Shown here piece by piece: positions 30,203 to 31,552 of a stretch of DNA of 64,000 bases; within the stretch, counting starts at the first letter, position 1, and the number at the start of each line of letters is the position of its first letter. The notes under the pieces were generated by a model that saw only the letters and a program-made list of their open reading frames with translations, was not told the origin of the DNA and ran no database searches. A program made the position numbers and the translations under genes. The stretch comes from Aphelocoma coerulescens (lineage: Eukaryota > Chordata > Aves > Passeriformes > Corvidae). The stretch is taken from NCBI RefSeq assembly GCF_041296385.1, contig NW_027184084.1, forward strand, positions 496,001 to 560,000, written 5' to 3'.

Positions 30203-31552
30203 TCATCCCCCTATCGGCATTGAAGAGGAATTGTAAGGAAATGGAACTGTATAAGGAAGCCATGGGGTGAAAAACGGATTAGGAATAAACTGGGGATAGG
30301 GTAAACTTAGGAAAGGGTTCATATTGGGTATAGGGTAAAAGGGGAAATTAGGCTGCGGGTAGGGAAATTGTTGGGATGGATATTGTTTATAATTTTGTGC
30401 ATAACGGCTGCCTTTGACAGGAATACCTTCAGGCCCAGTAACATTCGCTGCTTGTAAACCCTTCTTTCCTTGCACTATATCAAATTGTACAGCTTCTCCA
30501 TCTCCTACACTTTGCAGGTAATTTTTAGGGTTATTCCTTTTAATGGCAGTTCTATGGATGAATAAGTCTTCCCCTGTATCATCTCGTGTTATAAATCCAT
30601 AGTTGTTTTTGACATTGTACCATTTCACAGTTCCTGTGATTTTCGTGGCTACAACGTCTCCTATCACTTGCTTGCGTGTTCGTCGTGGGTGCCGGTCTCG
30701 CGTGGCTGCTGCCTCGCTGACTCTGACGTCTCGGCCGGGCCCCCGCGTTGCGGCTGCTCTGCGCTCTCTGCACGGCCCCGCTCCGGCGCGTGTCTGGGCT
30801 CTGCACGGCCCCGCGCTGCCATCGCCGCTGGCTCCGTGGCCTGTGAGTGGTTCCGCTCCGCAGACTCCACGCCGCTTTGAGAGTGGCCCCGTTTCGGCTC
30901 GGCGCTGCACGGCGCGGCTTCTCGTGTCGCTGTGGAAACCGCCGCTTCTCCCTCCACAGGGCTCTCCGAGCCAGTCGCTCAGAGCGGCCTGCCACGCCGA
31001 TGCCCGCTTCCTGGCTGCTCGTGGCCCACGGCACCCGCGGCGCCTGCGGTGTCGCTCCCTCACTCGCGGCCGGGTGGCCGGGGACCCTGAGACAGGGATG
31101 GGGTCCGCGATAAGGCGCGCGCTCCCGAGGGGGCCGGGCACATCCAGCGCAGGCACTTCCGCTGGCACGGCTGCAGTCATGCGCTCCCGGGATGGCTGCT
31201 GCGCGGTCTCAGCCACGGGAGAAGTATGATCTTCTGCTTTAGGGGTAATGGGACCATACAAATGCTCTTCAAGAGCGTCCCTGATTACAAGATATGCACG
31301 GAAAGCTTCGCTTTGATCCCATACCTTATCCCAGATCTCGTCCCAGAAACACCCCTCACAAGATTCAGGAGGTTCGATATCAAAAAGTAAGTCTCGGGAA
31401 ATATAGGGGAACCTTTTGAAAAGCCACATAAAGAAGTGTTCTACATCTCCCGGTTGCATTACTTTTTTGTTTTGTTGTTCAAGGATTTCTTTTACTTCTA
31501 GATACATTTTTTTCTGTGGCTCAGAGAGCCCCATTTCCCACGATTCTTCCAT
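30203..31552 (-). CDS. ERV-G matrix-like / Y-box cold-shock domain fusion protein
   Basis: A single intact 449-codon frame with ATG in fair context (ACTATGG). Residues about 1-100 resemble a betaretroviral matrix in layout (helical, HFFMWLFKRFPY, then FWDEIWDKVWDQ); no Gly2, so no myristoylation. Residues 100-300 are Ala/Arg/Pro-rich and GC-rich. Residues about 302-378 (30650-30420) form a cold-shock domain of Y-box type: GTVKWYNV, NNYGFI (RNP1-like), EDLFIH (RNP2-like), KRNNPKNYL, SVGDGE, AANVTGPEG. The tail is rich in Pro, Tyr and Phe. The domain is uninterrupted by introns, as if copied from spliced mRNA. Y-box proteins bind RNA and single-stranded DNA; here RNA packaging or translation effects are possible but inferred. 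The matrix label is the weaker part. Confidence 0.9.
   Translation of the reverse strand: MEESWEMGLSEPQKKMYLEVKEILEQQNKKVMQPGDVEHFFMWLFKRFPYISRDLLFDIEPPESCEGCFWDEIWDKVWDQSEAFRAYLVIRDALEEHLYGPITPKAEDHTSPVAETAQQPSRERMTAAVPAEVPALDVPGPLGSARLIADPIPVSGSPATRPRVRERHRRRRGCRGPRAARKRASAWQAALSDWLGEPCGGRSGGFHSDTRSRAVQRRAETGPLSKRRGVCGAEPLTGHGASGDGSAGPCRAQTRAGAGPCRERRAAATRGPGRDVRVSEAAATRDRHPRRTRKQVIGDVVATKITGTVKWYNVKNNYGFITRDDTGEDLFIHRTAIKRNNPKNYLQSVGDGEAVQFDIVQGKKGLQAANVTGPEGIPVKGSRYAQNYKQYPSQQFPYPQPNFPFYPIPNMNPFLSLPYPQFIPNPFFTPWLPYTVPFPYNSSSMPIGG

Follow-up and report, generated by a model that had tools for sequence, protein, structure and literature searches.

The window analysed here, a stretch of 64,000 nucleotides from Aphelocoma coerulescens (NW_027184084.1, positions 496,001 to 560,000, forward strand), contains on its minus strand a long terminal repeat (LTR) element of 2262 bp, an endogenous retrovirus (ERV) whose 1.7-kb interior consists of a leader, one frame of 449 codons and a 3' untranslated region (3'UTR). 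The frame joins an N-terminal domain, matrix-like by its predicted fold, to a Y-box cold-shock domain (CSD), and belongs to a large family of insertions in which strong purifying selection acts on the CSD. The parts of the element are given below in window positions.

31953..31958, minus strand: target-site duplication, copy 1 (GAGCAT on the minus strand)
31660..31952, minus strand: 5' LTR, 293 bp, TG...CA
31640..31657, minus strand: putative primer binding site, 18 nt
31553..31639, minus strand: remainder of the 5' leader
31256..31552, minus strand: frame residues 1-99, helical, matrix-like by predicted fold
30668..31255, minus strand: frame residues 100-295, Arg/Ala/Gly-rich linker
30419..30649, minus strand: frame residues 302-378, Y-box cold-shock domain (Pfam and solved-structure matches)
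30206..30418, minus strand: frame residues 379-449, end of the Y-box match and Pro/Phe/Tyr-rich tail
30203..30205, minus strand: stop codon TGA
29984..30202, minus strand: 3' untranslated region
29984-29996, minus strand: polypurine tract AAAACGGGGGAGA, adjoining the 3' LTR
29691..29983, minus strand: 3' LTR, 293 bp
29685..29690, minus strand: target-site duplication, copy 2 (GAGCAT on the minus strand)

The two LTRs are direct repeats that start with TGTTGGGG and end with CTGTAACA; they show no difference over 293 bases, and the window copy is therefore young. Taking a songbird rate of 2-3e-9 substitutions per site and year, its age would lie below roughly 2.5 million years. The frame (31552..30203, minus strand) runs intact from ATG to TGA, and the open reading frame listing of the window shows no long pol or env frame in the interior. 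Thus, the element has the paired TG...CA LTRs, short target duplication and polypurine tract of an LTR retroelement and lacks the protease, pol and env of its own that an autonomous retrovirus carries; an Rfam scan of the window gave no match. An earlier note on this DNA, made from its letters, had described the intact frame, the two LTRs with a target duplication and the loss of pro-pol-env, all of which hold, as well as a perfect primer site. As to the latter, an 18-mer that may match tRNA-Ala begins at the right place, 2 nt past the upstream LTR, but among the 44 copies with two LTR matches it is one base longer in 28 and has the form of the window copy in just 4, so that "perfect" is not secured. 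The purine tract of 13 nt is identical in 27 of the same 44 copies.

The CSD announced for residues about 302-378 was recovered by Pfam (PF00313, E 2.6e-23), and the top solved structures are Y-box CSDs, those of YBX2 (7f3i, E 5.8e-41) and YB-1 (6a6j, E 2e-40). A chance open frame or a low-complexity match was ruled out by the E value of 5.8e-41 together with the relatives found in two genera. Directly after the CSD the frame reads VKGSRYAQN, and VKGSRYA-N is likewise present in YBX2. The 65-residue tail is almost free of charge (K+R 0.02, D+E 0.0) and has no charged repeats; compared with a Y-box protein, then, the Y-box-type CSD is present and both the C-terminal charge-cluster domain and the CSD introns are absent. 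Searches by tblastn with 61 Y-box N-termini returned the CSD edge and low complexity, with no convincing Y-box N-terminus. The DNA of the linker (30668-31207) has a GC content of 0.73 and a CpG observed/expected ratio of 0.99, its neighbours having GC contents of 0.43 and 0.40; this richness resembles the CpG island at the first exon of the YBX3-like gene of the jay, and comparison of the two gave no convincing match. A unit of 11 residues (33 bp) after residue 250 varies in copy number in 6 of 32 aligned copies, producing frames of 449, 460 or 471 codons (L004, L017, L018, L022 and others).

Regarding the N-terminus, the matrix-like character proposed earlier is upheld by structure prediction and not by sequence. 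No matrix relative was detected with Pfam, the PDB or BLASTP against the class II gag in the window, and a first fold model (mean confidence, pLDDT, 62) gave no useful match in two structure libraries. A second model, built from six sequences, matches matrix proteins, the nearest being those of Rous sarcoma virus (RSV) and mouse mammary tumour virus (MMTV), which supports a matrix-like domain of alpha/betaretroviral type as a predicted fold. Gly2 is lacking in this part, which is acidic in the window copy. Given the 6-bp target duplication and this predicted fold, the element is assigned to class II (ERV2/ERVK-type).

The same architecture was found by protein search in another protein of A. 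coerulescens (P0001), 78% identical to the window frame in the first 115 residues and 94% in residues 285-449, and in Corvus moneduloides (P0002, P0003, P0100 and P0101), P0100 representing 24 sequences and P0002 and P0101 being without the usual tail. The databases label these relatives "uncharacterized protein". In the CSD tree the six family proteins form one group (90/97, not starred) with two subfamilies that are 64-66% alike in the CSD, and the four RNA-contact (stacking) residues are present in all six, down to the 64% identity between subfamilies. P0003 is a mosaic whose matrix part is 91% identical to P0100 and whose CSD is 90% identical to that of the window copy; it joins parts from different subfamilies, an outcome expected if templates were switched between co-packaged RNAs. 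Scans of viral contigs found no relative of the element.

In the jay genome (1.33 Gb, 660 contigs) a query with the CSD and tail gave 6577 first-look candidates; the 150 places scored, which are best matches and not a random sample, have E below 1e-94 and 92-99% identity, with a stop inside 6. A matrix query gave 1653 candidates, and its 150 scored places, likewise the best matches, include 84 with an open frame of at least 430 codons (counted by hand) and 7 with a stop inside. Contig C34, of 20.98 Mb or 1.6% of the genome, holds 28 of the 150 scored CSD places (hand count), 11.8 times its expected share. According to the published description of the Florida scrub-jay assembly, the largest W-linked scaffold measures about 21 Mb and consists of about 90% repeats, mostly LTR elements (PMC11631490), so that C34 is probably the W chromosome.

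Since choosing copies by their CSD could bias an estimate of selection, copies were picked with the non-coding 3'UTR as query, which gave 1522 candidates; 40 of them, 95-100% identical, were scored and all were read. The CSD was present in 40/40. The full frame, a criterion that demands the first residues of the matrix part, was found in 35; two of the other five start later (434 codons), one has a different end and two are broken. Two LTRs were found in 39 of the 40 copies, and an exact 6-bp target duplication in 38 of these, with 36 different target 6-mers among the 39; a genome search of the kind the earlier note had suggested thus shows the LTR pair enclosing the same gene in dozens of independent insertions that retain the frame. 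The LTR pairs of the 39 copies differ at 0 sites in 15, 1 in 11, 2 in 6 and 3 in 4, the last three copies having 6, 20 and 21 mismatches.

The ratio of non-synonymous to synonymous substitution rates (dN/dS) was estimated from 32 copies, the 35 with a full frame minus 3 segmental duplicates, arranged in 16 disjoint nearest pairs and bootstrapped. It was lowest for the CSD, at 0.13 (0.07-0.19, from 22 synonymous and 10 non-synonymous differences); the tail gave 0.30 (0.05-0.81), the matrix part 0.49 (0-0.94) and the linker 0.65 (0.49-0.82). Over all pairs, the CSD had 0.15, the tail 0.29, the matrix part 0.50 and the linker 0.56. Young copies predominate among those nearest in the 3'UTR, and the pairs take in drift after insertion. 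A biased earlier set, now superseded, comprised 40 of the 142 CSD places outside L001-L008, picked by CSD similarity and mostly long frames; there the CSD came to 0.13 and the matrix part to 0.34. Selection thus guards the CSD most and is strongly purifying there as the family multiplies, and the 3'UTR-chosen sample does not prove constraint on the matrix part.

The absence of introns was compared with the Y-box genes of the jay itself, which a 38-residue query located on contigs C2 and C22 and which we presume, from their letters, to be YBX3-like and YBX1-like, respectively. The CSD of the YBX3-like gene is split over four exons (ATKVLG..INR, NDTKEDVFVHQ, TAIKK..EGEK and GAEAAN..), the last three of which were also seen in the YBX1-like gene; the exon edges bear AG and GT, some a base or two within the compared stretch. 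The element crosses the same stretch without a break. Because the jay genes have CSD introns and the element none, the comparison supports the view, already held in the earlier note, that the CSD derives from a spliced Y-box mRNA. The remaining 148 of the 150 scored places of this query appear, taken as a group, to be element copies by their 66-71% identity over the query. No exon resembling YBX2 turned up among the 150. The gene need not be absent for that: it may be lacking from this assembly, or from the lineage, or may have fallen outside the scored places.

In the CSD tree the element stands beside YBX2 with weak support (57/68); grouping with YBX1 is not rejected (p 0.104), and neither is a tree that places subfamily A by YBX2 and subfamily B elsewhere (p 0.091). 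Over exons 3-5 the element matches the YBX1-like gene at 130/195 nucleotides and the YBX3-like gene at 135/195, these two matching each other at 155/195; at third positions the figures are 27/65, 30/65 and 30/65. On these sequence comparisons the donor paralogue cannot be named from the tree or the exon matches, and a single capture or separate captures would both fit. The low nucleotide match may reflect either an old capture or fast evolution.

The insertion lies within a further ERV on the same strand.

26943..35655, minus strand: gammaretrovirus-like ERV hosting the insertion, with gag, reverse transcriptase (RT), RNase H, integrase and env stretches

This ERV matches Gag_p30, RVT_1, RNase_H, rve and TLV_coat in Pfam, and the element sits inside its pol, between RT and RNase H. 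When the two 150-bp flanks were joined with one duplication copy, the pol reading was unbroken across the insertion point, and 47/103 of its residues agreed with the pol frame of a different ERV in the window (E 1e-32); the element therefore inserted into an ERV older than itself. Neither this insertion inside a gammaretrovirus-like pol nor the size of the family had been part of the earlier note. Two LTRs of the same superfamily lie in the window without an interior: one at 21792-22086, 83% alike to the element LTR and with TCACAT on both sides as a 6-bp duplication, the other at 32839-33113 inside the RT of the hosting ERV, 85% alike and with no clear target duplication. A class II ERV at 37499-43277 has long open frames, of 733 codons for gag and 963 codons for pol, and its two LTRs (36560-37121 and 43916-44477) are 99.6% alike; its LTR ends and primer site are unlike those of the element.

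Various observations concern the LTRs of the family. Likeness to the window LTR among the 44 copies is at least 95% in 27, 89-95% in 4 and below 89% in 13; across L001-L048 differing LTRs carry the same gene, and the forms of the primer site vary too. L025 has an exact 6-bp duplication yet 20 mismatches between its LTRs, and another of the 40 copies has 21, which may point to LTR subfamilies having exchanged sequence and not to age. L006, L007 and L008 on contig C645 and L005 on C496 all have the duplication GGTTCC; one 60-bp flank is common to 4 of the 44 copies, and three places are spaced 17.7 kb apart on one contig, so that this locus seems to have been duplicated as a whole.

Altogether, the element is best explained, and in our judgement probably so, as a member of a recently active, non-autonomous class II family of jays and crows whose captured CSD binds its own RNA and whose propagation depends on a helper. 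An ancestral class II element would have acquired a spliced Y-box mRNA by a switch of templates, and its capsid, nucleocapsid, pol and env would have been lost. The transcript made from the LTR would then serve both as genome and as mRNA for the matrix-CSD protein, which may bind that same RNA through its CSD soon after translation, the CSD assuming the RNA-handling role of nucleocapsid in Gag. The protein could stabilise the RNA or deliver it to particles formed by the Gag of a helper class II ERV, from which reverse transcriptase and integrase would come. With Gly2 lacking and an acidic character in the window copy, the matrix part probably docks to helper Gag or to the assembly site rather than simply binding membrane. 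With a Y-box CSD of its own joined to a matrix-type domain, the element may bring a YB-1-type host function to its RNA. A part in RNA packaging, stability or translation is indirectly indicated by the selection on the CSD, the RNA-contact residues and the use of YB-1 by MMTV. A more specific version, to which we give somewhat less than even weight, is a "matrix plus cold-shock" Gag of a corvid lineage, in which the Y-box domain replaces capsid and nucleocapsid and the protein selects the element's RNA in cis and feeds it into helper particles. If true, this would explain strong purifying selection on the gene of a non-autonomous element during its spread, a spread accompanied by the roughly twelvefold surplus on the probable W among the 150 best-matching CSD places.

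The strongest rival, though unlikely by comparison, is that the CSD protein acts as a shield or translation regulator that coats the element RNA, in the manner of a Y-box mRNP protein of germ cells, against decay or small-RNA silencing and has no part in packaging. Y-box proteins are general mRNA-coating proteins, the stretch VKGSRYA-N is shared with YBX2, the germ-cell paralogue, and the strongest constraint falls on the CSD, all of which would suit such a role; however, the matrix-type domain with which 35 of 40 copies begin would then lack a clear function, and the charged C-terminal domain through which YB-1 coats mRNA is absent. Recruitment of the protein by the host, for instance as a germ-cell mRNA regulator or against related ERVs, appears improbable: ENS-1/ERNI of the chicken, of retroviral origin, is described as having a role in chick development, but selection here acts over dispersed copies (36 target 6-mers among 39), which fits propagation and not one host locus. 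Still less credible, and already disfavoured, is a functionless frame that is intact because its copies stem recently from few sources. Identical LTR pairs in 15 of 39 copies leave little time for decay, the linker ratio of 0.65 is nearer 1, and the matrix-part interval is wide; against this stand the CSD ratio, obtained from copies picked by non-coding similarity, and the RNA-contact residues retained in both subfamilies. The contrary case raised in the earlier note, a host Y-box retrocopy around which LTRs merely happened to land, has nothing in its favour beyond the host-like domain and is ruled out for practical purposes by the ERV pol that forms the outer flank and by the 38 of 39 two-LTR copies in which exact duplications enclose the same gene.

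The capture of host genes by ERVs is already known. In agreement with the earlier note, which knew of no such avian ERV, searches of the open-licence literature aimed at such an element, at gene capture in birds and at neighbouring topics yielded no description of a matrix-CSD element (subscription journals and repeat libraries were outside this scope), and we know of no matrix-CSD fusion. Most of the captured host genes known to us encode signalling or surface proteins; what the jay element captured is a general RNA-binding domain, set on a matrix-type domain and strongly selected during multiplication. This offers a way to test by what means a non-autonomous element ensures that it is packaged or protected, whether nucleocapsid can be replaced by a cold-shock domain, and whether mRNA-coating proteins are borrowed by retroelements for life in the germ line.

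Among known systems, YBX1, YBX2 and YBX3 share with the element a CSD with four RNA-stacking residues and, in YBX2, the VKGSRYA stretch that follows it; unlike them, the element is intronless, has neither a convincing Y-box N-terminus nor a charged C-terminal domain, and is fused to a matrix-type part. Class II ERVs (ERV2/ERVK, alpha- and betaretroviruses) share the 6-bp duplication, the TG...CA LTRs and the predicted matrix fold nearest RSV and MMTV, whereas the element is without capsid, nucleocapsid, protease, pol and env and its LTR measures just 293 bp. ENS-1/ERNI, compared by description, is likewise avian, of retroviral origin and built as LTR-ORF-LTR with a single frame; no CSD is known to us in ENS-1. 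Comparable as captures are CrocERV29 with KIT-ligand and CrocERV31 with nectin3, ERV families with an intact spliced host coding sequence for which purifying selection is reported (PMC4299795); unlike these, the jay element retains just a matrix-like domain and its captured domain is of a nucleic-acid-binding type. A further parallel is the betaretrovirus MMTV, a class II retrovirus that is reported to assemble with YB-1 and viral RNA and to yield fewer particles upon YB-1 knockdown (PMC4486188, PMC6797609). There, YB-1 is a host factor acting in trans, whereas the jay element encodes its own CSD fused to a matrix-type domain.
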